Assembly (NCBI RefSeq): GCF_949820605.1
Contig: NZ_CATKVU010000001.1
Coordinates: forward strand, 62,001-126,000
From: Segatella copri
GTDB lineage: Bacteria > Bacteroidota > Bacteroidia > Bacteroidales > Bacteroidaceae
Reading direction: 5' to 3'
DNA length: 64,000 bases
This document shows positions 3,685 to 20,770 of the stretch, piece by piece. The notes beneath the pieces are model-generated. The model was not told the origin of the DNA, did no database searches, and saw only the letters and a list, made by a program, of their open reading frames with translations. Both the position numbers and the translations under genes were made by a program. The first letter of the stretch is position 1; every line of letters starts with the position of its first letter.

Positions 3685-3720
3685 TTAAATTGGCTGGTGA
3701 ATAATTATCAATTTGATATT

Positions 3721-4341
3721 ATGGAAAGATGCGACTTTATGCCTTTGACTGCAGAACTTGCATCTTTGCCTTTTTGTTGTGGTGAAACAGAAGGAGATAA
3801 AGACTTGGAAGACTTCTTTCATCACAATGCCTTGCTGTATGCTCAAGAGCGACTTGGTAAGACTTATTGCTTTGTCAACAATGAAGGTGAGTTCTCTGAA
3901 ATCGTTGCATTCTTTACTGTATCAAATGATAGTGTAAAGACAACTTTTATTCCGAAACCTTCTGCTAACAAGGTTCAACGAACTATACCAGGCCAAAAAC
4001 ATCTTCGTACTTATCCTGCCGTATTATTGGGAAGACTAGGGGTTAATAAGAAATATCAAGGACGAAATTTCTTAGTTGGTCAACAAGTGATGAACTTTAT
4101 CAAGACGTGGTTTGTACAGGAGGATAACAAAACAGGATGTAGATTCTTGGTTGTTGATGCGTATAATCAGCCAAAAGTTCTTAGCTTTTATGAGCGCAAC
4201 AAGTTTAAGTATCTATATGCCACAGAAGAATTAGAAAGAGCAGAACAGCATTTCCCGGAAACTTCTCCGGTTTATACCAGGCTCATGTTCTTGGATTTGT
4301 TGCATACTCAGATATTGGAATATCCTAATGTAATTAAGTAA
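3721..4341 (+). CDS. GNAT-family N-acetyltransferase, probable TacT-like toxin
   Basis: About 206 residues. The N-terminal CGETEGDKDLEDFFHHNAL segment matches the entry of TacT-like toxins, in which a small folded start leads to the GNAT core, and the acetyl-CoA loop is visible as GVNKKYQGRNFLVGQQ near residue 105, followed by a late strand with DAYNQPKVLSFYERNKF typical of GNAT motif B. TacT-type enzymes acetylate aminoacyl-tRNA and stop translation; this is family knowledge, not shown here. A GTG at 3697 would add eight residues, but ATG 3721 better matches family starts. The preceding 58-residue gene would be the antitoxin. It could instead be an ordinary GNAT enzyme. Confidence 0.75.
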   Translation: MERCDFMPLTAELASLPFCCGETEGDKDLEDFFHHNALLYAQERLGKTYCFVNNEGEFSEIVAFFTVSNDSVKTTFIPKPSANKVQRTIPGQKHLRTYPAVLLGRLGVNKKYQGRNFLVGQQVMNFIKTWFVQEDNKTGCRFLVVDAYNQPKVLSFYERNKFKYLYATEELERAEQHFPETSPVYTRLMFLDLLHTQILEYPNVIK

Positions 4342-4397
4342 AATTGTTTGGTTAATATATTCTGATGAACTTCTTCTTGCTTTTAATATGGTTGTTC

Positions 4398-4533
4398 TCT
4401 GCACTATCCTAAACCGAATCACCGGCCTTGTGGGGATATTGATATCTTCCTGATGGATAAGGAGGGAAGGCATGACGAGGAGATGGTGAAGGCTATCGAT
4501 GACGTGGTTGCGTTCTTAATGTATCGCCAGTGA
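4398..4533 (+). pseudogene. N-terminal fragment of NTP_transf_5-like nucleotidyltransferase
   Basis: The frame LHYPKPNHRPCGDIDIFLMD carries the GDID metal-binding motif of the nucleotidyltransferase fold, continues to AFLMYRQ and stops at TGA 4531-4533. No start codon or downstream body is present. The DNA passes directly into the glmS-like fragment below, so this is a broken-gene junction rather than a functional peptide. Confidence 0.5.
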
Positions 4534-5239
4534 TGCGACTCCTATCGTGGAGCATACGGCATGTCATTACGATATCAAGGCCGTGGATCTGGACATCAGC
4601 AAACTGAGCAAGGGTGGTTTTGATCACTTTATGCTGAAGGAGATTTATGACCAGCCTAACTGTCTGAAGGATTGTATGAGTGGTCGCCTCTTTGCTGACT
4701 ATTATCAGATGATAGAGGAACTTTCTGAGATTCCGCAGAAAATGGAGAAGGTATTGGAGCAGGCTCCGATAATCAAGGATATCTCCCGAATGTTTACTTA
4801 TGCGCACAACTTCCTGTATCTGGGGCGTGGTGTGAACTATCCTGGGGCGATGGAGGGTGCCTTGAAGCTGAAGGAAATCAGTTATATCCATGCCGAGGGC
4901 TATCCTGCTGCCGAAATGAAGCATGGCCCTATCGCTCTGGTAGACCAGGACATGCCAATCGTTTTCCTTGCTACGCATCAGCAGTTGTATGAAAAGATTA
5001 TCTCGAACATGCAGGAGGTGAAGTCGAGAAACGGCCGCATCCTTGCCGTGGTGACCGAGGGTGACCAGCAGGTGAAGGAAATAGCGGATAATGTATTGGA
5101 GGTTCCAAGAACCCTGAACGCGCTAGTTCCGCTGCTGAGCGTAGTTCCGCTGCAGCTGCTTGCTTACTATGTGGCTGTGGATAAGGGACTGGATGTGGAT
5201 ATGCCGAGAAATCTGGCGAAGAGTGTGACAGTGGAATAA
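4527..5239 (+). pseudogene. Truncated glmS-like gene (glucosamine-fructose-6-phosphate aminotransferase)
   Basis: Beginning at ASDATPIVEHT, the frame follows the GlmS sequence but with large pieces missing. It reads GGFDHFMLKEIYDQPNCLKD, then jumps from SGRL to FADYYQMIEELSEIPQKMEK, then covers the second sugar-isomerase domain: YLGRGVNYPGAMEGALKLKE, HAEGYPAAEMKHGP and the C-terminal DMPRNLAKSVTVE. The N-terminal glutaminase domain with its catalytic Cys1 and most of the first SIS domain are absent. An ATG at 4547 permits a 230-residue product, but it could not make a working enzyme. The 5' end abuts a nucleotidyltransferase fragment. Probably a decayed paralogue; the housekeeping glmS should lie elsewhere. 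Confidence 0.8.
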
Positions 5240-5277
5240 TATGATTTTGATTTCTAAAATCATCTAATTTTTTTCTA

Positions 5278-5450
5278 AAATCATCCCGTCCTTCTTTACC
5301 ATTAAAGAAGGCTCCACCTTTCTCACCAAGCCTCTCTTTCCTCAGGAACGAGAGGATGTAACCGCCCTCCGGTGCTCGGAACCGCTACGCTCTAAGGTTG
5401 GCGGGGCATCAAAGCCCTCGCCATGGTTGTGCGGGATGGGACCGCCTGGG
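5278..5450. repeat. Structured intergenic repeat, copy 2
   Basis: Same order of parts as the copy at 3163. Hairpin 1 is CCTTCTTTA/TAAAGAAGG, where one C-G pair of copy 1 is replaced by T-A. Hairpin 2 is CCTCTC...TCC-TCA-GGA...GAGAGG. The conserved 3' block with GGCGGGGC/GCCCTCGCC follows nearly unchanged. It lies directly after the glmS remnant. Confidence 0.75.
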
Positions 5451-5542
5451 AAAAGGTGGGGGATAGTCTTGTAAGCCCAGTGAATGGGCGCAAAGGTAAT
5501 GAGAATTTTTCAAAGTGCTAAAGAATATAATAAGGGAATTGT

Positions 5543-6154
5543 ATGGAAAAGAATAGTCAAACAAAATCAGTCTTCACGATTAGCGGTAGGCATAGATTTG
5601 TAGCTTGTGTCATTGTTGTAATACTTGTATCCTGTGCAGCATTTGCTTATCTTGCTTCTTGCTATAAGCAAGCACAAGATGATATTGTAGCTCTGCAAAA
5701 GAAGGATGCTTTGATGTTTGAGCAGGTCTTAAACAGCAGTAAGAATGTGAAGAGTAAGAGTTCTGAGAATATCGACCAGCTTCAAGCTTTGCTTGATAAG
5801 CATCAAGAGCGTCAAGAGGCTCTTTTGCATTTGGAATACAATAAGCTACAGGCGGATTTTAATGTACTTATGTTTGCTGCGAGCTGCCTAATGATCATTT
5901 TCTTGGTGTTCTCGTTATATTCTATTTTCAAGACCGATGAAATGCTCAATAAGGCTGAAACTGAGGCAAAAGGCATTCATAAGTTATTGGATGAGGCAAA
6001 ACAGACTACTGAGACTATAACCACTCAGTGTCAAATTATGATGGCGCAACAAAAGGGGCATGGGGTGAGACCACCATCACCAGTTCCTCCTCTTGCGCCT
6101 CAAACGGATGACGTACATTCTAATGATATGGGAGGAGAAAGAGATGATAGCTGA
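5543..6154 (+). CDS. Membrane protein with two hydrophobic segments and a coiled coil
   Basis: A 203-residue protein of unknown family. Residues about 18-41 (FVACVIVVILVSCAAFAYLA) and about 110-132 (LMFAASCLMIIFLVFSLYSI) are membrane segments. The stretch between them is rich in K, E, Q and heptad-like leucines (QLQALLDKHQERQEALLHLE), consistent with a coiled coil in the periplasm. The C-terminal part is another helical region ending in a proline-rich tail (PPSPVPPLAPQTDD). It overlaps the next small gene by 10 bp, so the two are probably made together. The layout resembles anchoring or sensor subunits, but no function can be assigned. Confidence 0.7.
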   Translation: MEKNSQTKSVFTISGRHRFVACVIVVILVSCAAFAYLASCYKQAQDDIVALQKKDALMFEQVLNSSKNVKSKSSENIDQLQALLDKHQERQEALLHLEYNKLQADFNVLMFAASCLMIIFLVFSLYSIFKTDEMLNKAETEAKGIHKLLDEAKQTTETITTQCQIMMAQQKGHGVRPPSPVPPLAPQTDDVHSNDMGGERDDS

Positions 6155-6497
6155 TGTTAGAAGAGCTGTTGCCGTAGCTTCTTATGTAATGGTGACAAAC
6201 AGAGTGGCTTCAAGTGTGTTTGATTTTGCCAATGGTGGTTATCATCCGATGAGTGTTTCGCATACTGGCAATTTTTTGTCAGTATATGATTATCAGAGGA
6301 GTAATTATCTTTCTGGTTATCTCCCTAACCTCTTTGATTACTCTACTGCCTCTTATGTAAACATGATGATGTCTGGCAATACCATCAATGGCTTTGACTA
6401 TCATACCGCCACCTATTTCTCTGTTACGGTAAATGCCGGTAATGTAACCATCTTCGATTACCAGATGGCGCAATATTATATGTATTCGGTGAATTAA
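6145..6497 (+). CDS. Small repeat protein with [FY]D[FY]xxxxY units
   Basis: A 117-residue protein. I chose ATG 6145, which follows an RBS-like GGAGGAGAAAGAG, over the ATG at 6093 that lies deep in the upstream gene. After a short N-terminus come five units opening F/Y-D-F/Y at residues 26, 48, 64, 84 and 104, each followed by a tyrosine about five residues later and by N/G-rich turns (FDYSTASY, FDYHTATY, FDYQMAQY). Spacing is 16-22 residues. The pattern suggests short beta-strands stacked as a small solenoid or sheet, a feature of the sequence rather than of a family I recognise. No signal peptide. Coupled to the preceding membrane protein by a 10-bp overlap. Confidence 0.6.
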
Positions 6498-6526
6498 CTA
6501 ACCTGCATATTTCATACTCACCTGTT

Positions 6527-6853
6527 ATGCGCATGAGCCAAAGGCGATTTTGCAGGAAGTACATTGAAAGTTATGAATATTTACATTTCGAGAACCAAAG
6601 TCACTATGTAAATTATTGGACTCCTGAGCAAATGCATGTGCTGGATGTAAGGCCGGGAATCACTGCCCCTGCCAGCATCAAGTTCAGAAATGAGAATGAG
6701 TTAATGGAGAAGGCAGCTGATTCTGAGGATTATTACATCCATGTAATCATGCAGGAGAAGATTAAACTCTATCTGGAGTATGTAAAGAATGCCAGCTTCT
6801 GGTATGACTTCAAGCTTATCTTCAAGACATTTGAAGTGATTGTAAAAGAATAG
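6527..6853 (+). pseudogene. C-terminal fragment of a bacterial sugar transferase
   Basis: The segment YWTPEQMHVLDVRPGITAPA followed by IKFRNENEL and the end LYLEYVKNASFWYDFKLIFK reproduces the C-terminal third of undecaprenyl-phosphate sugar transferases (PF02397; WcaJ/PglC type), where VRPGIT and the terminal FxxDxxLIFKT are conserved. The N-terminal membrane helix and catalytic core are missing, so the 108-residue frame is a remnant of an exopolysaccharide gene. It sits just upstream of the third structured repeat. Confidence 0.75.
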
Positions 6854-6885
6854 TCCCACCTGTCTTCAATAGTCTTTACGACCCT

Positions 6886-7061
6886 TTCAGTTCCCCTTGT
6901 AGGGGACAGTACCCCCTGCGGGAGGGCCCTTAACCTACTCCCAAGCCCTCACTCTTTCCAAAAGGGCAAGGGATGTAACCGCACCTTCTCGGTGCTCGGA
7001 ACCGCTACGCTATAAGGTTGGCGGGGCATCAAAGGTCTTCGCCATGTTGTGCGGGTTCCCG
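6886..7061. repeat. Structured intergenic repeat, copy 3
   Basis: The 3' block from about 6988 is nearly identical to the copies at 3163 and 5278 (one change, CTATAAGG for CTCTAAGG, and AGGTCTTCGCC for AGCCCTCGCC, which weakens hairpin 3). Hairpin 1 has a different sequence, with TCCCC/GGGGA arms, but is in the same place. The copy ends exactly where another GDID-containing nucleotidyltransferase scrap begins (7061-7107). Confidence 0.65.
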
Positions 7062-7107
7062 GAGATATTGATATTTGGGTGAATAAATGTTATATATATG
7101 GCATTTG
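7061..7107 (+). pseudogene. Short GDIDIW scrap of a nucleotidyltransferase
   Basis: The frame RVPGDIDIWVNKCYIYGI followed by TGA contains the GDIDxW motif of the NTP_transf_5 family. Nothing else of the gene remains. From 7108 to 7289 no gene is visible; the DNA is AT-rich and precedes the primase-like gene. Confidence 0.35.
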
Positions 7108-7289
7108 ACATGATTGTAACTGAAAGGAGGGATTATGTCTTGTTGACGGAGTCTCTTCTGGTTAGATTTGTTTAAAAATCGAAAAAGTCCATTTTTTAAT
7201 ACTCTTTATCCACAGTAAACATTGGGGAGAAAGTTGTATTGCTATAGGGGATGGATGCTTATACAAACTTTATTATCTTTTTTTGAATT

Positions 7290-8333
7290 ATGGTTTATAT
7301 TCCTAAAAGTGTAATTGAAAAGCTAAATGAACTTTCCTGTGAAGAGGTTGCTGAAAAATTAGGTATTGTAGTGAAGTATCATAGAGCATTGTGTATTGCA
7401 CATGATGATCATCATCCTAGTATGGGGTTCTTTGGGGAGAACCGTAATCGTTGGTATTGCTTTGCTTGCCACAATAGTGGCAATGCTATCAAATTTGTTG
7501 AGACCGAATTAAATTTGAGTTTTGTCAAAGCATGCGAATGGTTATGCAGTCAGTTTGGGATTTATCTGGAAAATGTGCCTAGAAGATCAAAAACTCTGGT
7601 TATACCAAAACGAATAATAAAGAAACCTGTAGAGAAAGAAAAAATATTTGTTACCGAGGTTGCACAGTATATTCTTAATCATTGTAATCTGACTGCTACA
7701 GGAAAGAAATTCTTGTTTGATGAAAGAAAATTAAATCCTACAGTCATTAAGTCTTTAAACATCGTGTCTCTAGATGAGCCTTGGGAACTTCTAAAGAAAT
7801 TGAAAGATTCGTTTCCGCAAGAAACGTTAATAAAAAGTGGATTTATATCCCAAACACTATATCTTAGTATATTTACTCCGTGTTTGATAATTCCATATTA
7901 TGACGTGGATTGTAATTTAGTGGGACTGCAAACACGATATTTAGGGGCTGCAGACAAGAAAGTGCCTCGTTTCCAGTTTATTTCGTCTCAGAAAACTAGA
8001 CTTTATAATTTACCGGTTCTAAATACGCTGGAAAGAGGGGATGATTTGTATATCAGCGAAGGTATTACAGATTGCCTGGCATTGTTGTCTGCGGGTAAAA
8101 AGGCTTTGGCGATTCCGAGTTCTACTATTTTACCAAAACTGGATTTGATGATGTTGGACAAGTTCCGCCTGCACATGTATCCAGACAATGATGATGCCGG
8201 GCGAAAGGCTTATGAACAGCTTCAGCGTTTCTTTATTAATCTCTGTGTTTTTTTGAGATGTGAAAAACTGCCGCTAGAGGTAAGTGACTATAGTGAATAT
8301 TATAAGAATAATTATGCCACAGGAAAAGAATAA
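7290..8333 (+). CDS. CHC2 zinc-finger / Toprim primase-like protein
   Basis: A 347-residue DnaG-type protein, first gene of the reverse-transcriptase operon. The zinc finger is visible as C35-x2-H38 with C57-x2-C60 (WYCFACHNSGNAIKFVE). A central region follows, then a Toprim domain with the catalytic glutamate in YISEGITDCLAL (E257) and the acidic motif MYPDNDDAG (near 299-302). Family role: RNA-primer synthesis by Mg-dependent nucleotidyl transfer. It is short compared with housekeeping DnaG (about 600 residues) and lacks a helicase-binding C-terminus, as in mobile-element primases. The next gene starts inside its 3' end (20-bp overlap). Coupling with an RT suggests that it provides primers or templates for the RT, which is inference. 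Confidence 0.85.
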   Translation: MVYIPKSVIEKLNELSCEEVAEKLGIVVKYHRALCIAHDDHHPSMGFFGENRNRWYCFACHNSGNAIKFVETELNLSFVKACEWLCSQFGIYLENVPRRSKTLVIPKRIIKKPVEKEKIFVTEVAQYILNHCNLTATGKKFLFDERKLNPTVIKSLNIVSLDEPWELLKKLKDSFPQETLIKSGFISQTLYLSIFTPCLIIPYYDVDCNLVGLQTRYLGAADKKVPRFQFISSQKTRLYNLPVLNTLERGDDLYISEGITDCLALLSAGKKALAIPSSTILPKLDLMMLDKFRLHMYPDNDDAGRKAYEQLQRFFINLCVFLRCEKLPLEVSDYSEYYKNNYATGKE

Positions 8334-9030
8334 TAAAAACAAGATTCCAGCTTATTCTGCTTTTTTGTTTAAGCTTGATATTCAAAAACAGCTTGAAGAA
8401 GAGGAAGATGGAATAGACGAGGAGACAACGAAAGAAAATGCGCATAGTGATTCTTTTGGAAAGGATATTTCTATTCGTAATAAAAAGCATCAATTAAAGG
8501 TTCTGAACTTTTTTTTGAATCTTCTTGTAGATAATGTTGACAAAAAACGGGATGTGAAACAAATCGTAAAATTGATAGTAACTCAAGATGAGCCGCTTTT
8601 TGGATTTGCATACTTTGTATCATGCAATTCTCAATTTGGTAATACTTGGAGCTATTTAAGAAAACAAACTATTGGCTATCAGGAGAAGCTGGTTGATTTG
8701 TTTTTCTTTTTTACTAACATTGTAAAAGCTGTCAACCAATTACAAGAGCTAGACGCTGAGTATAAAAAGGCAGAATTTATATTTAATGATCTGTTCGTCT
8801 TATCTTTTAATGAATATGCTCGCCCCAAAATGACTTTGGAATGGAGTAAGTTTGATCATCTTCTTCATGTAAAGGATGGTTTTACGATTGCGGTGAGAAA
8901 AGACAAACTGATGTTGTTTTCTATGTATTGTAAGTTTGTGGATGAAGAACAGGATGATGTTCAACAACGGCCTATACTTGTCTTTATAGACAAACTAAAA
9001 AAAATATGGAAGGGGTATTTTCATGAATAG
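8314..9030 (+). CDS. Unknown protein between primase and reverse transcriptase
   Basis: A 238-residue protein starting at ATG 8314, overlapping the primase gene by 20 bp and the RT gene by 8 bp. The N-terminal third is charged (KNNKNK, QLEEEEDGIDEETTKEN); the rest has alternating hydrophobic helices (FFLNLLVDNVDKKRDVKQIV, LVDLFFFFTNIVKAVNQLQE) and a strand-rich end. I recognise no domain. Its position, locked by overlaps into the primase-RT operon, implies it is a required subunit or accessory factor. No signal peptide or obvious membrane segment. Confidence 0.75.
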   Translation: MPQEKNNKNKIPAYSAFLFKLDIQKQLEEEEDGIDEETTKENAHSDSFGKDISIRNKKHQLKVLNFFLNLLVDNVDKKRDVKQIVKLIVTQDEPLFGFAYFVSCNSQFGNTWSYLRKQTIGYQEKLVDLFFFFTNIVKAVNQLQELDAEYKKAEFIFNDLFVLSFNEYARPKMTLEWSKFDHLLHVKDGFTIAVRKDKLMLFSMYCKFVDEEQDDVQQRPILVFIDKLKKIWKGYFHE

Positions 9031-10100
9031 TGTTGTTTCAAAAATCGATAACCGTAAGAAGAATAGCTTGAAAGACAGTATTGTAAGTTATGAAAATATT
9101 TATAATGCTATTTACTGTTTGGAATCTTATGTCTTTGAGAAAGGTCTTCTAGATTGTGTGAATCCTGTAATAGGAACAAGTGATAATATCATAGCAAAAA
9201 ATGACCTTGAACTATTCTATGCTTTGGGTGACAAATATAATTCAAAGCTAATTCTGGAAGTGATACAGGCTTGCGAGAAGCGACTTAATGAAATTTTGGA
9301 TACTGAGAAGAAAGTTCTTTTCGACATTTCTGTATATTTCAAGATGAAGAAGGTTGAAGGGAATAAATTGGTTTATCGACCGATGCACTCTGCCCGTTTG
9401 ATAGATATGATCTGCATGGTTTGCATTTTGGCAAAATTGATGTATGATGATTCAAATGGGATACGTAACCTTTCTGAACTGTCTAAGCTGATTCCACATA
9501 ATTTCTATGGCAATCTGCCTAGCACTGATGTAAAATACTTGTTTAAAAACTGGAAGAATCAATATAAGTCTTTTTCTGATGATGTTGTGCAGCATTGTCG
9601 TACCTATCAGAATAGCCATCGCTATTTGACAGAGGTATGTCTTGACATACAAAACTTCTTTCCAACGGTTTCCCCTAAGTATCTATATAATCTGATTGTA
9701 AATAAGCTTTCCGCTACTTTTGGTAGTGAAAATAATTGTAAGGGTGATATTGAAACTTTAAAAGTAGCGATTGCGAAGTTACTTTATTTTGATATTGATA
9801 AGACTTACCTCGAATCATGGGCAGATGAATATTATATGAATAAGACAGAGAATATAAGTGACTTCTATATGAATTGTGGCATTCCACAAGGTTTGCCTCA
9901 GTCATATTTCTTTGGTAATCTCTGCATGCTGGCTGTTAGAAAGGAAATGATGAGGAAAGAAATATTCGAAGGAGATGCTTATTTTTATGTGGATGACTCT
10001 GTAATTTATATAAAGTCAGAACTGGACAAGAGTGAATTTAATGAAAGGATAAAACGGCTCAATGGCTCATTAGATAAATTTTTTAATGATAAGGATAGTG
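9023..10100 (+). pseudogene. Reverse transcriptase-HD gene, 5' part (interrupted by IS4-family element)
   Basis: Encodes the RT domain. Visible RT motifs are LDIQNFFPTVSP (motif A, D near 208), CGIPQGLPQSYFFGNL (motif B, near 285) and YFYVDDSVIY (motif C, catalytic YVDD near 322). In the present state the frame reads four residues into the insertion and stops at 10114. Native codons end at ...NDKDS (residue 359), where the IS left end begins at 10101. The N-terminal 100-residue helical region is unlike group II intron or retron RTs and suggests one of the unknown-group/abortive-infection RTs. Start ATG 9023 overlaps the upstream gene by 8 bp. Rejoined with the part at 11500, it gives a 1166-residue RT-HD protein. 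Confidence 0.85.
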
Positions 10101-11494
10101 CAATAGTTCGTTAATAATTCAATAATGTGCTAAGCAGCTATACGCTGTAAGCACGAGAGATCTTTGAAAATCTTGCTAATTAAAGTTCGGTTCGGGGTGT
10201 ACCCACTTGCTTTAAAAATTCGTTTCACCAGATAAATGTTGGTCATCAGTGACTTGAATGAAGACATAGAATATTCCATTCCCATCTCCTTCATAGTTAC
10301 CTTGGCAACATTTAGTGATGTGAACGAAGCATTGAAAGCAAAATCGAGTTTCCATTTATCGCGAGCCTGGCAGTCCATAAGACCAGTATAGCCTTTGGCG
10401 TCACGAAAGCAAAATTCGATCTGGAACCTGGTTCTATAATAAAGAAGTACCTCTTCACCCGAAAGTGAGGTGTCTGTAGAGAAGAATAGTTTCTTCTTGC
10501 CATTCGGCATCTGCCAGATGACAAGTCTAACTTTACACTTGAGTGCCTTGGAATAGGCAATCAAAGTATAAGCTGTTCCTTCTATATCTTTCATTTCCAT
10601 CTTCTCCATTCGAGTGAGGTCAAGATTCTTCATATCAATCTTGCCATCCTTGGTCTTTGGGCGACCACGTTTTCCAGTACGTGGACCAGCATAGACATAA
10701 AAGAGACAAGCATTGTCACGAAAGCGGCTTATCAAAGAGAACCCTTCTTTCTTTATCCCATTAACAAATGTACTTGTAGAGAAGTAAGCATCTGCAACTA
10801 TGAGGGTTGAGAGTTTGAGAAGTTCATTGCGGTAACGCTTAATGACGCCGATATAGAAATCTACCATAGTCTTGTTTCTAAGACTCAGTTCTTTATTACT
10901 TAGCGACTGGTGGGCTCTTAACATCATGCAGTCTTTGGCAACAATATCAATGAGTCCAATACCCATGATTTCGAGACCATGTTTAACAGACTGTGCACAT
11001 CCCGACCAAAAACGACCGATATGTGGAGTCTTCTTGCCAGCTTTGCTGATGTAGCTGGGATCAATGGCAATAGCCCATCTTCCCTGTTTACCAAAGAAGC
11101 GCTTGGCAAGTGAGACATTAAGTTTGAGCCAGTCAATGCTTTTCGACTTTTTTAAGCCGAATGCGTTGCGATAGGTTTGCTCAACATGCGAGCCATACCT
11201 CCCCATTTGGGTGAAATTTATCTTTCTTGGTATTACCATGAACAAAATTATCACCTCGATGAGTATTTTCTCGAAACTTTTTGTTAACTTTGCAGCCGAA
11301 TCTTCAACTGCATCTTTAAAGATATCCATATATTGGTCAAGTCCTGTATTCATATAATTTTGCGTTTGTCGTGATTTGCAAAGTTACTGAAAATCAGCGA
11401 CTTGACCAACTTTTTATAGTTAAGTTTTCATAAATATTTCTTAATATAAGTTGTTGATTTACAGACGATTAAATATTAATTTAACGCAGTATTG
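10101..11494 (-). mobile_element. IS4-family insertion sequence, copy A (inside the RT gene)
   Basis: 1394 bp with imperfect terminal inverted repeats starting CAATAGTTCGTTAA on the left and CAATACTGCGTTAA read inward from the right. It is flanked by a 6-bp target duplication ATAGTG (10095-10100 and 11495-11500). A second 1394-bp copy at 42834 shares the ends and has its own 6-bp duplication ATTAAC, which fixes the boundaries. Confidence 0.92.
10130..11353 (-). CDS. IS4-family DDE transposase, intact copy
   Basis: A 407-residue transposase. The DDE core is visible: WAIAIDPSYISKAG (first D), LIVADAYFST (second D) and the IS4 signature YRTRFQIEFCFRDAK, which fits Y-x2-R-x3-E-x6-K exactly and supplies the catalytic Glu. 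Reading opposite to the host operon, it fills nearly the whole element. Only a few residues differ from the copy at 42863, which has a premature stop; this copy appears intact and so could be the active source. Confidence 0.92.
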   Translation of the reverse strand: MNTGLDQYMDIFKDAVEDSAAKLTKSFEKILIEVIILFMVIPRKINFTQMGRYGSHVEQTYRNAFGLKKSKSIDWLKLNVSLAKRFFGKQGRWAIAIDPSYISKAGKKTPHIGRFWSGCAQSVKHGLEIMGIGLIDIVAKDCMMLRAHQSLSNKELSLRNKTMVDFYIGVIKRYRNELLKLSTLIVADAYFSTSTFVNGIKKEGFSLISRFRDNACLFYVYAGPRTGKRGRPKTKDGKIDMKNLDLTRMEKMEMKDIEGTAYTLIAYSKALKCKVRLVIWQMPNGKKKLFFSTDTSLSGEEVLLYYRTRFQIEFCFRDAKGYTGLMDCQARDKWKLDFAFNASFTSLNVAKVTMKEMGMEYSMSSFKSLMTNIYLVKRIFKASGYTPNRTLISKIFKDLSCLQRIAA

Positions 11495-11499
11495 ATAGT

Positions 11500-13923
11500 G
11501 AAGACTGTGATGTTTATAATTTCCTGCCAGCAAACTGTAAGAAATTCCAGGAAAACTTAATATATAAGGTGCATTTTCATGAGGATGGAAAAAGCTCATG
11601 TAGTTATATAGATGATGCTGATAATCATCTAGAAGGTATTGAGAATATACCTAGGGAAATATCTAAAACCGGCGGCATGTTTTGGAGTTTAGATGATATA
11701 GATGATTCTATTTCATTCAAAAAACTTTGTGCAATCCAAATGGTGGTTGATGCAGAAATTCAAAGACTTAAAAAGAAAGAGGATGATTCGAATGCTGGTA
11801 AGGGTCAGATGAAAGAGAAGGATATTTCAAGACTCAAATGGTTGAAACGATACAAAAAATACTTCCTTTATCGTGTAAATCTCTTCAGATTGAAAACAGA
11901 ATCAAATTCTGGAGAAAAAATGATGGAGGATTTTGTTCAAAAGATACTAGATGAAGAAAATAAATATAAAAAAGAAAATGATAGAGAAAGTCTAAATGCG
12001 TTAAAGGATTTTCTTGAAGCAACCGAAGAGGAAATCTTTCAGTCGAAATATCGGTTGCTTATAGAAAAACTTTCTTCATCAAATGCGGATAAAATAGGAG
12101 AAGTAGTTAGAAATTTTGAATCTTTATTTACTCAAAAAGGCGAAACAAAGAATCTATATTATCGTAAGGATGTAGAGAATTCTCTTGCGATGAAGGAACT
12201 TTATTTAGATAAATATGCTTCGCTGAAACGGGGGATGAATGGAAACTATAGAGGAAATAGGGATTTGAAGCAGGCTACTCAATTTGAGAAATTTAAAGAG
12301 TTCCTGGATAATATAAGTAACTTGGAGAATCTGCATAATCAGGAGGATTTAAAAGATTATTCTGTTTTGGGAATAGAGAAATATACAATATTCGTAGATA
12401 AGAACTCTCCTGATTTCCGACGTAAAATATTGAATGCTTATTATTCCGAATCGATAGGTGTCAGATGTTCTGACGATTATTCGTTTGTAAAATCCAACTC
12501 AAAGAAATTATGTTATACAGAGTTGCGCATCTTGTTGAGGTTGAGAAACCCACATTTTGATTTCGACGATTTCGTTGCATTCGTGAAAAATATCAACAAT
12601 GAAGATATTTCTAATCAGATGAATGTTGATATGTCGCTTTTAGGGGTGTTGGGTACATTCATCTCCTTCGTTAAGAATCCTGATTGGATAGATAGCTTGA
12701 TTCAGACTCATCGAATCACCAAGGGCTTGTGGTATAATGGTTCAAAATTCTTGAACTCTTATACCTTGCACAATGAAGAGCATGCTGTGACGTTAGTCAA
12801 TAATGCGGTACACATTGTAAGAACCATAGATTATTTCGTGTTAAAGCCAATTGATTACTATATCTTGTTTTTATCATGTTACTTGCATGATATTAGTATG
12901 GTTATTCATCCTGACTTATATATTTTAGGTTCTGCCAATAGCAATACATTTGACTTTGTATCAGAGCAAATCCTAAAAATGCAAAATGCTGTTGACGAGT
13001 TCTTCAAGTTGGGCGAGGATAATCCTGTGCATAATGATGAGATAGAGAAAAAGAGAAAAAGAAATGTTCATTTTAAGGAAGCAGGCAATCATCTGGTAGA
13101 GGTATTTGAAGCTGTATATGATTTTTTTAGTGATAGAACCAGAGTAAGGCATCACACGGAAAGTGCTGACTTTATCCTATCTAAGGCCCATTCTTTGTTG
13201 AGTTATTTGGAACCTACACTTGTTTCTTTTGTTGCTAAGGTTTCTGAGAGTCATTGTTGGGATTATAAGGATGTGTATGGATTGAAGTCTAGGGCCCAAA
13301 GAGATACGGTAAGTCTGAAATATTTAATGATACTGATTCGTTTGGCTGATCTTTTTGATGTTGCCAACGATCGAGTCAATTATCATTTGTTGCGCCAGAA
13401 CATAAGTTTCATGGCTGGTATTTCAAGATTCCATTGGATTTCACATCTAATTACCGATAAGCTCGAGTTTGATGCAGATTATGAAACTCCTTGTTTGGAT
13501 GAAAAAGGTAATTTTATAGAGCAGAATATCTACATGCCTTTATATGATAAACCCATAACGGAGATTCTCATTGTCAGGTTGTATTTAAATGTAAAGTATT
13601 TAACAACCATCAATAATACAGAAAAATGCGAAGGATGTAACTGTTGTTTGAATGATGGAAGGATAGAGATAAATATAATGGATGGGCCTGAAAATGTTAA
13701 TGACATTCAGTGTGAGAATGACAAATGTACCCTGATATGTCGTTGGATGATGAAAAAGCATGAATGGTTAGTTCAGGAGTTGAGGGCTTTGAATGAATAT
13801 CTTTATTCCGTCAATAATCCTTTAATACAGACAAAAATCAAGCTTGAGATTATATGTAAGAATGACATGAAGCTAGATGCAGACTTGTTTGATGATGTAT
13901 CTGCTTTTCTTAAAGTAGAATAG
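11500..13923 (+). pseudogene. Reverse transcriptase-HD gene, 3' part (HD domain)
   Basis: Dropping the IS and one 6-bp duplication joins KDS to EDCDVYNFLPANCKKFQENL in frame, extending the RT protein by 807 residues to 1166. Detached, a product could start at the ATG 11569. The middle is helical and charged. The distal part is an HD-type phosphohydrolase domain: LHNEEHAV (near 783), YLHDISMV (HD near 822), and the late pattern ADLFDVANDRVNYHLLRQN with ISRFHWISHL, which recalls the HD-CE domains of conflict-system effectors. A C-terminal CxxC...C cluster (CEGCNCC, CENDKC) could bind metal. An RT with a fused HD effector-like domain is uncommon; the fusion partner may degrade nucleotides or DNA, by inference. 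Confidence 0.85.
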
Positions 13924-13955
13924 AAATTGATAAACTATCTATAACAAAGAAGCTT

Positions 13956-14021
13956 ATGAGCGACGGGAGAAACTTTACTTTCATCGGCATGGCAAAGATA
14001 ATGAAAAACGAATTGATATGA
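13956..14021 (+). CDS. Possible 21-residue coupled leader peptide
   Basis: MSDGRNFTFIGMAKIMKNEL followed by I and a TGA that overlaps the ATG of the next gene (ATGA). It occupies most of the 94-bp gap after the RT gene. It may be a leader that couples translation of the membrane-protein gene or a chance ORF; there is no homology evidence. Confidence 0.25.
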   Translation: MSDGRNFTFIGMAKIMKNELI

Positions 14022-14788
14022 ATGTTCAAAAGCAATTTGACACAGTTACAGGTGCGTTAAACATCTTTGATATGTCGTACTTGATTTCTGGTACGACTAT
14101 GTTGGGTGTTTTGATATATACTTTTTCTAGCTTTAAAGATTTTGTGTTTCATAAGGAGCAAGTAACATTATCTGTGATAGTATGTATTGTTATCGCATAT
14201 GTGTTGGGGATGATAAGTTGGATAGCGGGTAAGCAAATTCGCTATTGGCTGATGAAGCATTTTTGGGAAAGGGATAAAGATGCCGATTTTGAATTTATGT
14301 TTTCTGAGGCTGCGACACATTTTACATTCAAAGATGAGTTGATTACAAAACTGATAGAGGAAAATAAGAAAGTTGCTTTTTCGTATATGTGGATGAGATT
14401 GGACAACTATCAAGATGAGGATTGTCGAAATCGGTTTGTGTATATTTCTCGTTTTTGGGTGTTGAGAGCGATATATGAGGGATTGATGCTGCCCGTCTTG
14501 TTGTTGTTTGTGAGTTTACTAATCAAGCATTTTACCATGTGGAGAAGTTGGTTTGAGGTTTTCAATCAGTGGCAAAGCAACTGGAGTGATAAAGTGATAT
14601 ACAGCTGGGCAGAGAATATTATAGTATTTATTCTCGGTGTTTGTATCATGGCTACTTTCACATATTGCATCATGAATTTACTTGCTAAAGAGGCAAGAAG
14701 GTGTGCTAATACGCAGATAAGGGAAGTAATTGTGGCGTATTATCATCTAGTGGAGGAAAGAAGCCCTGGAACAGAAGAACAAGGGTAA
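14018..14788 (+). CDS. Four-helix membrane protein, last gene of the RT operon
   Basis: A 256-residue protein with hydrophobic segments near residues 18-34, 47-68, 150-168 and 198-221, leaving a cytosolic helical region between the second and third (FWERDKDADFEFMFSEAATH and onward). No catalytic motif is seen. It starts 94 bp after the RT-HD gene on the same strand. Membrane proteins beside nucleic-acid sensors often act as the killing effector, and this is the simplest guess for its role. The last residues (ERSPGTEEQG) lead into decayed sequence and may not be the native C-terminus. Confidence 0.7.
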   Translation: MNVQKQFDTVTGALNIFDMSYLISGTTMLGVLIYTFSSFKDFVFHKEQVTLSVIVCIVIAYVLGMISWIAGKQIRYWLMKHFWERDKDADFEFMFSEAATHFTFKDELITKLIEENKKVAFSYMWMRLDNYQDEDCRNRFVYISRFWVLRAIYEGLMLPVLLLFVSLLIKHFTMWRSWFEVFNQWQSNWSDKVIYSWAENIIVFILGVCIMATFTYCIMNLLAKEARRCANTQIREVIVAYYHLVEERSPGTEEQG

Positions 14789-15323
14789 CTGGGTGATTGG
14801 AGGATATGCGGCAATGCCAAGATACTCTTCGACTGGTATCGAGAGGGACTGAAATAGTGATGATTTTGGGAAAAGCTCCTCTCCCCAATGATGAGTTTGT
14901 TTTTGGGGGATGGGGATTTGTACAAATATTACCTTACGAGAATGCAAGAGCTGGGTGGATGGGAGGATAGTCGTAAGGAATCCACAAATCGGGTGGACTA
15001 ATTATATTGTTAAATTTTAATTTCTTTAAAAAATGAAAAAATTAAAATTAAATTAGGTCGGGCATAAGATTGCCCGACTCATCGACAAAGTGAAAGGGCA
15101 GAGTTTTGAGGAGTCTGCCAAGTGTATAATCGCAATTTTGAATTTGTCAAGAATTGCAATCAAGTTGTACTTTGGTATTCCAATTGACCTTGTTGACGTG
15201 TTCAACGCTGGTCAAGATGTCATGTCGATTGTGTAGTACATCAAACAGGTGATTCAAACTCATGTTTGACACCGGGGAGGCGGTTCGCCGTCTCCTTTAT
15301 TATGTTTTTTACAAGAGTTCATT
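14789..15323. other. Structured intergenic region with three hairpins and a gene-like open frame
   Basis: No complete gene. From 14789 to 15000 coding-like scraps remain (CGNAKILFDWYREGLK, then YYLTRMQELGGWEDSRKE). Then follow an AT-rich hairpin AATTTTAATTT/AAATTAAAATT (about 15013-15050) and an 8-bp perfect stem GTCGGGCA/TGCCCGAC (15057-15078). An open frame without ATG runs 15057-15236 (KIARLIDKVKGQSFEESAKC then IIAILNLSRIAIKLYFGIPI). Last is a terminator-like stem GGAGGCGG/CCGTCTCC followed by TTTATT (about 15276-15300), 30 bp before the HEPN gene. It may hold a terminator or attenuator or an RNA partner of a neighbouring operon. Confidence 0.45.
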
Positions 15324-16691
15324 ATGAAATATTCTATTGAACAATCAGAAATAACAGAAAGAACAGAACAGATAAATAAGTTTGCTCTATTGGTTGATTT
15401 GTTTAATAATAAAGCCGTTGACAGAGAAACATTCATGGCTGAATTATCGAAGATTGAACAAACAGACTGGGCAAAAGAAAGTCTGTTTAATCAGTTGATA
15501 GGGTATTGTGTTCTTGGAGATGCTTATGGAATTCTGAAAAGCCGGGAATTGGATTTCAGAAAGGCATACTATAATAACGAATATGTCTATAAGGAAGTAA
15601 GCTACTACCATAATGTACAATATTTGATTACTCGTGTGAAAAAAGAAAAATGGGCAGCATTGTATCCTAATGCTTTCAGAACATCATGCCGTGCTTATTT
15701 GTGTTTAGCTAATGCATATGATCATCTTGGAAGATTCTGCGAAGCTCAACAATACTACAGAATGGCTTTGTTGGATACTTGCAATACGCAGGAAGTAGAG
15801 AGAAATCAAGGTTTTGCCTATGCTAACATGCATAGCTTTTGGACTGACGAAGAACCATTTATTGTAAGAAAAGCTCAGCAGATAATAAGAAAGTACCAAC
15901 AGTTTTATGATAGTCTTTCACCTTATTTCAGACAGATTTGTTCATGGCCCTCTCCTTCATTGGATGCACCTTTAGTTGATTATAACAATATCCAAGATGG
16001 TGAATACGAGAAATGGATATGTCATCATTATTTAAGAATCAATCGTTTTAATGATGTTGAACCTGATTCTATGCTGTCACTATGTGATAATGTGAAACTT
16101 CCTGTCATAGTTGACACCCCAGAGAAAAAAGCTCTTTATGAAAGCACCTTTGAAGAAATCAAAGGTAGTTTCATCAGCACCAGGAAGATTCTATATTCTA
16201 TCATAAATGAGGATAAGAACAGTGTGAATATGGAGATGCTGAAAATGGCATATAAGAACTTTTATTTCATATTCGACAAGATAGCCATGTTCTTATCCAA
16301 TTATCTTGATATTAAATTAAAATCCTATGAGGTAGATTTTGCCAAAATATGGAATTGTAAGAATGGAGATATTCGACAAGAAATCTTGGCACATTCACAG
16401 AATATGCCTTTATTAGGCTTGTATAACATCAAGTTGGATGTTTATGGAATGAAAACGGATTGGTATGTTGTTGATGAACAAACAAAGGACTTGAAAATGC
16501 TACGCAATTATATGGAGCATAAGTCGATAATTATTAAGGACGAGCCAATGTCCCATACTGAATACCAATTAACCATTTCGAAACAAGAATTGGAACTCAA
16601 TACTATTAGGTTGGCGCAACTTGTTAGATGCGCCATCATATATTTGTGCAATTTTGTTATGCACGCTGAATATGACAAACATGGCTCATGA
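15324..16691 (+). CDS. TPR-HEPN protein (LA2681-like), first gene of a Septu-like operon
   Basis: A 455-residue protein. The N-terminal half is helical with a tetratricopeptide-like unit (YLCLANAYDHLGRFCEAQQY near 135). The C-terminal half ends in a HEPN domain whose RNase motif RNxxxH is visible as LRNYMEHKSII near residue 395. The architecture fits the LA2681 branch of HEPN proteins, described as conflict-system RNases. Its stop overlaps the ATPase start (ATGA at 16688), and the ATPase stop overlaps the HNH start, so the three are made as a unit. The HEPN protein would be an RNase effector or the sensor partner of the ATPase-nuclease pair; which one is not visible. Confidence 0.8.
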   Translation: MKYSIEQSEITERTEQINKFALLVDLFNNKAVDRETFMAELSKIEQTDWAKESLFNQLIGYCVLGDAYGILKSRELDFRKAYYNNEYVYKEVSYYHNVQYLITRVKKEKWAALYPNAFRTSCRAYLCLANAYDHLGRFCEAQQYYRMALLDTCNTQEVERNQGFAYANMHSFWTDEEPFIVRKAQQIIRKYQQFYDSLSPYFRQICSWPSPSLDAPLVDYNNIQDGEYEKWICHHYLRINRFNDVEPDSMLSLCDNVKLPVIVDTPEKKALYESTFEEIKGSFISTRKILYSIINEDKNSVNMEMLKMAYKNFYFIFDKIAMFLSNYLDIKLKSYEVDFAKIWNCKNGDIRQEILAHSQNMPLLGLYNIKLDVYGMKTDWYVVDEQTKDLKMLRNYMEHKSIIIKDEPMSHTEYQLTISKQELELNTIRLAQLVRCAIIYLCNFVMHAEYDKHGS

Positions 16692-19018
16692 AAGATATTG
16701 ACATGATAAATATAGAACGCCCTTGGATGAAACCAAATTCTAAGGAGGATTGTAATGAAGGAATGGCTTCTCGTGGATTAAAATTGGTTGGGCTGAAATT
16801 GTATTCTCCCAATGAAGAGAATGCTATTTACCATGCAAAAATGATGCAAAAGTCCCTGTATGGTCGTGAAGATTGGCTGTATATCAATGAAGGCTTTTCT
16901 ATATCAGGCGATGTTGAGAATGGTTTTAATGTAGCAATTCGAGAGGATGCTTTTGATTCCGAATTTCTGCTATACTCACCAGACCATGGAGTGAAAGTGA
17001 GTATAAGTGCCATTGTAGGTCAAAATGGTACTGGCAAAAGTACCATTATAGACATGATATTGAGGACTCTCAACAATCTTTCGGCTGCTATTTTGGGTGA
17101 AACATTCAATTATTCGAGCGCCCAGCATCTTCATTACATTGACCATGTGTATGCTTCGGTTGCCGTCTATTTGGACCATGAGGTAAAAGTTCTTACCGTA
17201 AAAGGTAGAAATGTCTGTATATCAACTGTTGACGAGAATAACCATTGTGACACTATCAAAATACTTGAAGAACAATCAGAGGGAGATGTTGATGAACCAT
17301 TGAAATACCAAAATGGCAAACATGCTTATCTAAGTGGATGGTTTTACACCATTGTAAGCAATTATTCTCTCTATGCTTTTAATTATAGAGATTATGAAAG
17401 TGAGAGAACGTCTGTTGCAAAACTAGAAAGGTTATATGGCGATATCGAACATTTGAAGAACGAGGATTATTTTTGGCTCAAAGGGGTGTTTCACAAGAAT
17501 GATGGCTATCAAACTCCTGTTGTAGTTCATCCCATGCGTGAAGAGGGCTATATCAATGCAAGCAAGGAAAACATGCTTGGGAAGAATAATCTTGTAAATC
17601 TTGCGTTTTACGAAGTCCCAAAAACGGATGAAGAAGGAAAGAGTATTCGCGAATTCCCTTTGCGAATCATCAATAATACATATGAGGTTGTAGGTTTCAC
17701 GTTTAAATATAAGGAAGAAAATGAATATGAGGGATTCGAAGAACTTTATTTAGGCAAACTTCTCTCTGCAAATAAGAATAAAGACGAGAAAGAATACCTG
17801 AAACAAAGATTTGTTTCTATGGTAAATCCGATTTGTAAGTTTTGGGCAAAACAGATGCGCCTCATTCTTAAAGAAGATATTGAGACCTTGCCTAATTTAA
17901 AACGACAGGCATGGGAATATGTGGCATACAAGACATTGAAGATTATTCAAACATATAAACCATACGAAAGAGATTGGGAGTGGTTAATTGGTGACAGATA
18001 TGATGAAAAGAAGATAAAACGTTATATACACGATTTACTCCATGACCAGACTCATAGGACGAAGAAACTTCGTCAACAATTAGCTTTCTTGGTATTTCTA
18101 GATACAGAAGAGTATTATGCTATTCGTACGGGAGTCGTTCTTGCCAATGACGTAGATGGATTCATAAAAACAAATGAAGGTAGGTTCTTTTACGAAAGTG
18201 AAAAGAAATGTGATAAACCAACTACTGATTTCAAATTTCAAAAGGAAGACCTATTACCTCCACCTATTGCAGAAGTTACATTGATGATTGTAAAACGTGA
18301 TGACAAGAAGGCGTTTGAGAGTAAATCCAAGTCTGTTGGGCTGATACCATTTACCGGATTAAGTTCTGGAGAAAGGCAAATTGCCTATACGTTAGGGAAT
18401 GTGTTGTATCATCTGGTCAACATAGACTCAACAGTACAAGATGATTCCATAGAAAAAGAACATTTGTCATTTCTTAAGTATCATCACGTATGTATGCTTA
18501 TGGATGAAGTTGAACTGTATTATCATCCGGATTTACAACGTAAATTTGTGGAACTTCTGCTGAGTTCAATCAACTCAGTACATCTTAAAAATATTTATGA
18601 CATCAATATAACTTTAGTTACTCATTCACCATTTGTGCTGAGTGATATACCGCGAAGCAACATCCTATGTCTGCAAAAAGGAGAATGTGAAAAACAACGT
18701 GGGCAAACATTTGGAGCTAATATTGTTGACATGCTAAGTGAATCTTTCTTTTTGCAAGGGACAATGGGTGAAATAGCTCAATCATGTATCAATGAAGTTG
18801 TTGAGTTTTATTTCAAGCACAGAAGGTATCAAGAATCGCTAAGAGATAACGAAAACAAGCAAGAATTGCATATTGATGATATGGAACTGAATAAAGCTTT
18901 CGAGAAGCAGAAATCCAAATTTAATTATGTTACCAGTATCATTGGTGAAGAGTATCTTCAGAGGGAACTTAGGGAAATGTATGATGAGTTAGTGGATTTT
19001 TATGACAACGAAGAATGA
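16688..19018 (+). CDS. ABC/SMC-like ATPase, PtuA-like
   Basis: A 776-residue ATPase. Walker A is IVGQNGTGKST (near 109), the ABC signature LSSGERQIAYTLG (near 558), Walker B with catalytic Glu CMLMDEVELYYHP (near 601) and the switch histidine LVTHSPFVLSD (near 644). The wide spacing between Walker A and the signature holds a long insert with helices, as in overcoming-lysogenisation/RecF-like ATPases of defence systems. Placed between a HEPN protein and an HNH nuclease with 4-bp overlaps on both sides. It is larger than the compact PtuA encoded at 48341. Inferred job: nucleotide-dependent sensing that licenses the nuclease. Confidence 0.85.
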   Translation: MKDIDMINIERPWMKPNSKEDCNEGMASRGLKLVGLKLYSPNEENAIYHAKMMQKSLYGREDWLYINEGFSISGDVENGFNVAIREDAFDSEFLLYSPDHGVKVSISAIVGQNGTGKSTIIDMILRTLNNLSAAILGETFNYSSAQHLHYIDHVYASVAVYLDHEVKVLTVKGRNVCISTVDENNHCDTIKILEEQSEGDVDEPLKYQNGKHAYLSGWFYTIVSNYSLYAFNYRDYESERTSVAKLERLYGDIEHLKNEDYFWLKGVFHKNDGYQTPVVVHPMREEGYINASKENMLGKNNLVNLAFYEVPKTDEEGKSIREFPLRIINNTYEVVGFTFKYKEENEYEGFEELYLGKLLSANKNKDEKEYLKQRFVSMVNPICKFWAKQMRLILKEDIETLPNLKRQAWEYVAYKTLKIIQTYKPYERDWEWLIGDRYDEKKIKRYIHDLLHDQTHRTKKLRQQLAFLVFLDTEEYYAIRTGVVLANDVDGFIKTNEGRFFYESEKKCDKPTTDFKFQKEDLLPPPIAEVTLMIVKRDDKKAFESKSKSVGLIPFTGLSSGERQIAYTLGNVLYHLVNIDSTVQDDSIEKEHLSFLKYHHVCMLMDEVELYYHPDLQRKFVELLLSSINSVHLKNIYDINITLVTHSPFVLSDIPRSNILCLQKGECEKQRGQTFGANIVDMLSESFFLQGTMGEIAQSCINEVVEFYFKHRRYQESLRDNENKQELHIDDMELNKAFEKQKSKFNYVTSIIGEEYLQRELREMYDELVDFYDNEE

Positions 19019-19953
19019 AACCAATTGAATATCCATCCAAAGGGAGTAAAGAATTTGCAGATTTAGTCAATGACTATATAGGCCTTTTCGCTACTGATTT
19101 AGCAGATAAAGTTACGAAACGAGGAAGAAAAAGACTTGGACTCGAATCAAAATGGGAGAATTGGAAACGCAAATACAGATGTGTCAGAGCATTGAATAAT
19201 TCTGTTGCTGACTTATTGACTATGGATTTCGAAGACTTGGCATTATTCTATGAGGCATTTCTTCGAGTTTGTTCCAAAAAGAGAATTACATCTAAAAGTT
19301 TACATGACTTACATGAGATTTTCAAGTATACGAATAAATACGATTCCAAAATTTCCGCATTTTTTAAGAAGCATGCTGATGGACTAAAGATTTATACATG
19401 CCATTATTGTGATATGGCTTATATCAATGTATATACAGAAACTGGTAAAGGTGTAGCCAAAAGACAATTTGATATAGACCACTTTTTGCCAAAAGGAAAA
19501 TGTCCTCCTGTAGCGTTGTCATTATTCAATTTCGTTCCTTCATGTCCTGTTTGCAACGAGCGAATAAAACGTGAAGACTTACCATATGTGAATCTTAATG
19601 AACTGAAATTTCTTAGTCCTTCGTCCTTTGCTTTTGATTTACACAAAAGGATTAAAGTTAAGTTAGGTCACTTAATAAGTCCGCGCAAGGATTTCATTTA
19701 TTTTGTTGCAAAATACCCTTATGACAGATATGTTGATTTTTTTCACTTGCAAGAGCGATATGATTATCACAAAATTGAAGCGTTGCGATTGGAGAAACTT
19801 AAAAAGAACTATTCAAGGAGTCAGATTGCACAGATTGCTAAATGCCTACACCGGGCAGAAAAGGAAGTGAAAGAGGATATTTTCAATCAAAGATATATGC
19901 AGAATAGCCATCGTTGTTTTGCTAAATTTACCATTGATATTTTGAACAGATAA
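19015..19953 (+). CDS. HNH endonuclease, PtuB-like
   Basis: A 312-residue nuclease. The zinc-supported HNH core is visible as CHYCDMAYINVY (near 128), the catalytic DIDHFLPKGKCP (His near 155) and the second zinc pair SCPVCNERIK (near 176). The 120 residues before the core are basic and helical and may bind DNA or the ATPase. Cysteine spacing and the xxDHFLPK signature match PtuB of Septu. ATGA overlap with the ATPase gene shows obligate coexpression. Confidence 0.85.
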   Translation: MKPIEYPSKGSKEFADLVNDYIGLFATDLADKVTKRGRKRLGLESKWENWKRKYRCVRALNNSVADLLTMDFEDLALFYEAFLRVCSKKRITSKSLHDLHEIFKYTNKYDSKISAFFKKHADGLKIYTCHYCDMAYINVYTETGKGVAKRQFDIDHFLPKGKCPPVALSLFNFVPSCPVCNERIKREDLPYVNLNELKFLSPSSFAFDLHKRIKVKLGHLISPRKDFIYFVAKYPYDRYVDFFHLQERYDYHKIEALRLEKLKKNYSRSQIAQIAKCLHRAEKEVKEDIFNQRYMQNSHRCFAKFTIDILNR

Positions 19954-19959
19954 AAATTA

Positions 19960-20770
19960 TGGAGCCAAACAACACCCAACACAAATCATTCCTCTGGCAC
20001 CTCGACTTTGAGCCATTCACATGGCATACCTTCTACGGAGAGCAATGACCGCCATTTGTTACCGAAGAGAACAAGGAGGCATGGCGACGGTATCTGACAA
20101 AAGTCATCAAGATGCATCTGAAGGCAGAGGTGATGAATACACCTGAATTCAGAGATATTGAACTCAGATAAGGGAAGAGAAGCTGTTGCGCATTAAATGG
20201 GACGAGAAGAGAAAACGGTCTATGGAGAAGCAACGTTATCGCGCCAAGATGGAGTGACCGAGAATCAACTATATTCCCAAAGGGCTGAGCGTAGACAATG
20301 ACGAGGAATACTCCAAATATCTGATGCAGGAAGTAAGCTTTGAGCCAAGAGACAATGATGACTTTATGGCTCAGCTGCGACTGTTGGAACGATGGCACAA
20401 GAAATCCATCCCACAGATTTTGGCCAAGAACAGGCCTGATGCTGCCTATGGCATCGCCATGGCGCTGTGCAAGCATATACCACTGCTCATCAACCGAGAT
20501 GACATACAAGAACTGGTAGGCGAAAACAAAAGACGTATCGGTAAACTGATATTCGACAGCTATCAAGCCCTGGTGGAAGCTGTCAAGATATGGAACAACG
20601 AGGAGAAACGACAGGAGGTATGCCGCTATATCAAAGAGACGGCAGGACAATACCCCAATCATCGAGGCATGAAGAAGAAGTTGATGGACTTGATGCCTGA
20701 GATACCATTTGAAGGAGAGCCGATGGCTGTGACTCGTGAGCCAAACGACATGGAGAAATCACTCCTGTAA
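19960..20770 (+). pseudogene. Unknown gene with two stops and a frameshift
   Basis: Starting MEPNNTQHKSFLWHLDFEPF, the frame meets TGA at 20047, continues open in the same frame (PPFVTEENKEAWRRYLTKVI) to a TAA near 20170, then the coding pattern shifts frame (EEKLLRIKWDEKRKRSMEKQ), meets another TGA near 20255 and runs open to 20770. The last part, from ATG 20324, could still yield 148 residues. Both TGAs could come from TGG. I do not recognise the family. It heads an apparent operon with the genes at 20804 and 22337. Confidence 0.6.

Follow-up and report, generated by a model that had tools for sequence, protein, structure and literature searches.

A 64,000-nucleotide stretch of Segatella copri DNA (hereafter the window) carries an insertion sequence (IS)-broken copy of UG24, a candidate anti-phage system centered on a reverse transcriptase (RT). 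The system is a three-gene module, comprising a DnaG-type primase (A), a protein without a family match (B) and an RT fused to an HD-CE domain (C), and the three proteins are very probably all parts of it. The comparison with relatives adds to the catalogued system this three-part core with B, the exclusion of an adjacent membrane protein, the co-divergence of A, B, and C, and the lack of a conserved flanking non-coding RNA (ncRNA) in the lineages compared. Overall, the explanation that fits best, to which we give about an even chance, is that the broken module encodes a two-polymerase, DNA-writing defense. The features of the locus, with lengths in amino acids (aa) and open reading frames as ORFs, are:

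7290-8333, plus strand: gene A, 347 aa, a DnaG-type primase with a zinc finger and an RNA polymerase/Toprim domain; PADLOC RTasDnaG-like.
8314-9030 from ATG (238 aa) or 8284-9030 from GTG (248 aa), plus strand: gene B, the third module gene.
9023-10114, plus strand: first piece of gene C, with the RT domain (LDIQNFFP, GIPQGLPQ, YVDD) of UG24; it ends early due to the IS.
10101-11493: the IS, between GATAGTG copies at 10094-10100 and 11494-11500.
10130-11353, minus strand: the DDE transposase ORF of the IS.
11569-13923, plus strand: second piece of gene C, with the helical region, the HD-CE domain and the Cys-rich C-terminal part of the UG24 protein.
14018-14788, plus strand: a membrane protein of 256 aa, judged to lie outside the module.

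Searched separately, the two pieces of C matched the PADLOC model RT_UG24 at E 1e-124 (RT piece) and 4e-213 (HD piece). The N-terminal piece covered positions 3–311 and the C-terminal piece 337–1035 of the 1036 model positions, a full-length match within which the HD-CE domain is included. Domain matches were to RVT_1 (E 2.6e-08) and HD-CE (E 1.4e-29). Across 66 aligned rows of C relatives, the YVDD motif was invariant, as were the candidate HD ligands H786, H790, H825, D826, H913, H947, and D979. The HD piece retrieved at least 740 proteins at E 0.001 or better from 7996 candidates scored, the best among the matches listed being an intact 1169-aa relative (P0001), 98% identical over this piece. 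The RT-HD fusion of the original prediction exists in an intact relative, while in the window it is not one ORF: the RT gene is interrupted by a DDE-transposase IS with the 7-bp repeat GATAGTG on both sides, and the 1166-residue protein described earlier was a reconstruction across that cut. With the RT gene split, the assignment of the window to UG24 is drawn from sequence rather than from a working copy. Near window position 42871, beside a 278-aa minus-strand ORF (42863-43699), 30 bases match one end of the same IS exactly, probably as part of another, shorter copy of it.

The UG groups were reportedly defined in a survey by Mestre et al. in 2022. No functional study of UG24 was found in the literature searched, in which a paper on bacterial RTs has UG24 once, in a table. 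The original prediction had presented the pairing of an RT-HD protein with a primase as new; both the RT and the primase match PADLOC models, and since RT_UG24 and RTasDnaG-like have been in PADLOC-DB 2.0.0 since 2023, the pairing is, at the level of catalogues, of an already described type.

Protein A matched PADLOC RTasDnaG-like, filed under defense-associated reverse transcriptases (DRT), at E 3e-101, with Pfam matches to the CHC2 zinc finger (PF01807, E 1.4e-11) and to Toprim_2 (E 1.3e-05). The zinc-finger and Toprim residues pointed out beforehand proved genuine: in 18 aligned copies of A, that of the window included, C57, C60, E257, D299, and D301 were invariant and C35 and H38 nearly so, the exceptions being copies cut short. 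A profile of these 18 copies aligned with the solved Aquifex primase 2au3 over positions 21–334, through the zinc finger and the polymerase domain, and stopped there. The NCBIfam dnaG model matched A over 31–340 with a score far under its cut-off. Like the cellular enzyme, A has the zinc finger, the polymerase domain and the catalytic E/D/D residues; in contrast to it, A ends about where the polymerase-domain match ends and has no C-terminal helicase-binding domain, is about 345 aa long against the 667–769 aa open frames of DnaG-type genes in most of these genomes, and is placed on a separate branch. In the tree, this branch (support 100/100) separated 17 RT-associated primases from another 12 of DnaG type in this genome set. 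Without the helicase-binding domain, A is to be regarded as a primase-like enzyme rather than a replisomal DnaG, and its usual loading by the replicative helicase is precluded. The A of the window also matched positions 10–331 of the 2280-position PADLOC model RT_UG29 (PDLC03767) at E 6e-31, a sequence match that suggests a fused form of the same RT-primase pairing; a search of 227 genomes at E 1e-60 turned up no UG29 protein in which such a fusion could be seen directly.

Relatives were compared at 26 loci, 19 from genome contigs, two from viral contigs and five from further genomes. In three (L005, L012, and L018) the upstream sequence was too short, leaving 23 evaluable loci. A adjoined the other genes in 21 of these, counting L014, where A is cut by the contig end, and L020, and a gene stood in B’s place in all 23. 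The gene order was A-B-C, with overlaps or gaps of at most ~70 bp except for a gap of 196 bp in L040, a damaged locus with a short B and a broken C; in L041, C is split. In the window, the ORFs of A and B overlap by 20 bp from the ATG start of B or 50 bp from the GTG start, and B overlaps the RT piece by 8 bp. The previously noted overlaps of 20 and 8 bp thus stand with the ATG start, as does the location of the CHC2/Toprim, unknown-protein, RT, HD, and membrane-protein genes on one strand (plus). Two sets of loci (L021/L038/L040/L041 and L013/L014) are near-copies, so that the independent lineages are fewer than the loci.

A, B, and C co-diverge. In permutations uncorrected for shared descent, the distance-matrix correlations over 16 loci were r 0.87 for A-C, 0.92 for B-C and 0.96 for A-B, and over nine loci (one per lineage, with the L017 group left out) 0.80, 0.91, and 0.87, each of the six values being reached by 0/2000 permutations. 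Conservation of the primase and of the 238-residue unknown protein beside the RT-HD gene, as originally proposed, is borne out. In the genome sets searched, which overlap and include the seed genomes, UG24 was present in 2/393 genomes of the order, 8/399 and 5/297 of two families, 2/61 of the genus and 1/345 of the phylum, and in 1/93 genomes of the order of the Akkermansia locus.

B was the least conserved of the three proteins (mean identity 0.26 vs. 0.48 and 0.52 for the other two, nine loci), and its homology was supported by profile in 19 of the 23 loci. No family was recognized for it in Pfam, PADLOC or NCBIfam; among 54 members, Pfam and PADLOC gave only single weak matches at E 0.005 or worse, the sole PADLOC match having E 0.009. 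The fold predicted from 54 sequences (pLDDT, predicted local distance difference test, 79.9; pTM, predicted template modeling score, 0.78) would have a helical N side and a small alpha/beta C side, and no clear match was seen to a solved structure.

The limits of the module were sharp. In five pairs of loci with differing surroundings, drawn from three lineages (L002/L016; L003/L006/L007/L009; L008/L010) and 75–90% identical in nucleotides (two pairs at only 75–78%), DNA similarity stopped within ~20 bases of the outer ORF ends. Similarity began 1 bp before A and ended 2 bp after C in L002/L016, with corresponding limits of 9 and 2 bp in L006/L009 and of 0 and 2 bp in L006/L003. In L008/L010 it began 5 bp before A and ended within C, 6 bp before its end in L008, and in L007/L009 it ran from where B starts, a point 17 bp into the B predicted for L007, to 4 bp after C. 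L001 and L002 have 100 bp more of upstream sequence in common; the other locus pairs had common surroundings or were too distant to be informative on the boundary. No conserved non-coding DNA bordering the module was seen in the five pairs, and an Rfam scan of window positions 5000-20500 gave no match; by these two results, there was also no msr-msd ncRNA of the retron type. The end of similarity at the outer ORF ends argues against a conserved cis ncRNA as in DRT2, DRT3, DRT9, and DRT10. The region upstream of A was considered as a site for such an RNA and rejected: it measures 436 bp in the window, but in L002 and L003 a predicted ORF ends 14 and 13 bp before A, no conserved sequence was seen there and the Rfam scan was empty.

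The membrane protein, originally proposed as a fourth component and effector, was dropped. At E 0.01, tblastn detected nothing similar to it in the 26 relative loci, and in 22 of these there are at least 900 bp after C to accommodate it (L004, L005, and L012 have less than 900 bp, and C runs off the contig in L046). In L017, L019, and L039, the gene after C encodes a different, soluble protein, and the L017 copy matches AbiGi. The parts list is accordingly corrected, with B in and the membrane protein out. A simple hydropathy scan of the latter gave three hydrophobic stretches (42–71, 151–169, and 193–222), and the four helices named in the original prediction may or may not be present. Among 620 candidates, 316 relatives were found. 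One distant relative (28% identity) occurs at L045, flanked by glmS and an AAA ATPase, in a genome that has no UG24 match. There (6050-7935), the 225-aa membrane-protein relative follows an intact glmS and shares 4 bp with the gene for a 403-aa protein that matches AAA_16 weakly; this pair may be a separate two-gene system.

Among ten flanking proteins scanned, six matched a PADLOC defense model at E 1e-15 or better. Defense neighbors were a type I restriction subunit (L008), PDC-S02 nucleases (L003 and L009), PDC-S01 (L006), an AbiGi-like protein (L017), a HEPN/RES protein (L002), and an MkoA/MkoC-like helicase with a Schlafen/AlbA protein (L013). At L013 (3-6794), a 2263-aa helicase-like protein, whose C side matches the MkoA/MkoC models, is followed by the Schlafen/AlbA protein directly before the UG24 module. 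L038 has phage integrases on both sides of the module, and two relatives are located in IMG/VR contigs; the HD piece had no match among 50,697 phage records. On balance, the setting is one of defense islands and mobile elements.

In the proposed mechanism, UG24 would be a defense that writes DNA with two polymerases. C would synthesize a first DNA strand without a cis-encoded ncRNA, and A, freed from the replisome, would place short RNA on single-stranded DNA, either the product of C or phage DNA, for C to extend; a duplex or RNA-primed product would accumulate. A would thereby supply the RNA role filled elsewhere by an ncRNA or a protein primer. B might tether A to C, sense phage, or both, and the HD-CE domain could act as a metal phosphohydrolase in product trimming, in nucleotide turnover or as an effector. 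In the likeliest form, a toxic duplex would arise, with one strand started by the RT and the opposite one by the primase. That A and C would act in one DNA-synthesis reaction is the simplest reading because A has no helicase-binding domain and is passed on together with the RT, unaccompanied by any flanking RNA; judged from these sequence features, it may be true or not with similar probability, and the exact order of steps given here is doubtful.

Several observations weigh against this mechanism, the strongest against an obligatory role of A being two modules, L007 and L015, that consist of B-C without A. These modules start at B (positions 9334 and 9382, respectively), and the only DnaG-like match in each genome lies elsewhere (frames of 667 and 706 aa), so that A is dispensable or replaceable. 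Their lack of A also weighs on the original proposal that the primase would supply primers or template. The A copy of L020 is without a zinc finger. DnaG primases require a DNA template, and A alone therefore does not explain how C starts. Agreement between A and C dropped to r 0.55 (1/2000 permutations) within the seven closest lineages, and shared descent, for which the permutations make no correction, may contribute to the correlations. In four of the 23 loci (L017, L019, L039, and L046), position is the sole basis for the homology of B, and non-defense neighbors also occur, namely a CBS protein (L002), a DegT aminotransferase (L016), MnmE (L010), and an enolase (L038). An ncRNA supplied in trans or lying inside the coding sequence may also be compatible with the flank comparison.

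The last point leads to the possible, if rather unlikely, alternative that UG24 works as a conventional RT, protein-primed and ncRNA-templated as in DRT9 and DRT10, its ncRNA being encoded in trans or within coding sequence and A only sensing or binding phage single-stranded DNA. The RT piece had UG19 as its best profile after UG24 and then UG17 (=DRT10) as the second-best foreign profile, and DRT9 and DRT2 were among the folds aligned to C. Codon identity between distant relatives was also mildly in excess near the HD domain, at alignment columns ~1063–1094 of C; it could be chance or an embedded element and is a weak lead. The codon-identity excess in C decreased from z 6.35 to 4.9 (standard deviation of z, 1.3) after six-fold codon blocks were separated. 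Against this alternative, neither a conserved flank in the five pairs (three lineages) nor an Rfam match in window 5000-20500 was detected, and the codon signals shifted place between scans and were mirrored by opposite-sense excesses in two of them. Four synonymous-site scans revealed no consistent RNA element inside the ORFs: the lowest windows in C had z -4.1 to -4.7, and these scans also reached highs of +4.9 to +5.2, an indication of overdispersion.

A similarly tentative proposal is that C makes DNA without a nucleic-acid template, like class 1 AbiK and DRT4, while A primes the second strand or makes toxic RNA. It is consistent with the lack of a flanking ncRNA and with the predicted model of C, in which a long helical stretch (residues ~431–740) would follow the RT domain; the Foldseek matches to this model include AbiA, AbiK, UG15, DRT4, and DRT6, of which DRT6 had the highest query-normalized TM (0.25) among the 50 rows listed. 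Equally speculative is a version in which UG24 would be a DRT without ncRNA, the replisome-free primase making the RNA that starts or templates a template-using RT, B licensing the reaction upon phage sensing, and the ORF-exact cassette moving between defense islands.

Less probable than these is that A is a decayed primase, kept solely because its fold binds RNA/DNA or because it works as a Toprim nuclease. The RT-associated primases lie on a long, diverged branch, and A is absent in two of the 23 loci and without its zinc finger in one, yet the zinc ligands and E/D/D residues are kept over the 18 copies other than truncated ones, and the polymerase-domain motifs align to solved primases. That the module serves the replication or integration of a mobile element rather than immunity is very improbable: primase and RT are replication-type enzymes, and integrases and IMG/VR contigs occur among the relatives, whereas other relatives adjoin restriction, PDC-S01, PDC-S02, AbiGi, and HEPN genes, the HD piece was without a match in the phage records, and the flanks are unrelated between close relatives, so that no mobility gene travels with the module there.

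Two other regions of the window are of note. Upstream, at 3697-5239, is a shortened glmS-like stretch, in which a 230-aa ORF (4547-5239) retains one SIS domain and, compared by eye with the 614-aa glmS of L045, seems to be without the first; the stretch is possibly a remnant left at a hot spot for insertions. Downstream of the module, at 15324-19953, a HEPN_LA2681 protein is followed by two overlapping genes, an AAA ATPase and its partner, that resemble the PADLOC candidate PDC-M62A/B, and this PDC-M62-like pair may have the HEPN gene as an additional component.

Among known systems, the window is closest to the UG24 group itself (PADLOC RT_UG24 and RTasDnaG-like), as C and A match both models, and it differs by the IS break. 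Proteins that combine HD-CE with an HSP90-like ATPase, such as a Hymenobacter plasmid protein, have the HD-CE domain in common with the module, in which it accompanies an RT instead of HATPase_c_3. In the DRT systems that have been studied, DNA synthesis either copies an ncRNA or proceeds with no nucleic-acid template (PMC13174585), and a cis ncRNA is carried by DRT2, DRT3, DRT9, and DRT10 (PMC12632851, PMC13174585). DRT10, to which RNA pull-down sequencing has already been applied, combines the UG17 RT with SLATT and a 137-nt ncRNA beside the operon (PMC12632851). In the module, by contrast, neither a conserved flanking sequence nor a conserved membrane partner was seen. A single defense system with two polymerase activities is also found in DRT3, which uses two RTs to make complementary strands (PMC13174585), and in DRT7, an RT fused to a primase-polymerase (PMC13213688). 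The module would resemble both in this respect and differs in having, as second polymerase, a stand-alone primase of the DnaG (Toprim) type rather than a primase-polymerase fusion or a second RT. In UG24, catalogued but functionally uncharacterized in the literature searched, the trimmed primase, the undescribed third protein and the lack of a conserved flanking RNA would together constitute a third mode of initiation for defensive DNA synthesis.

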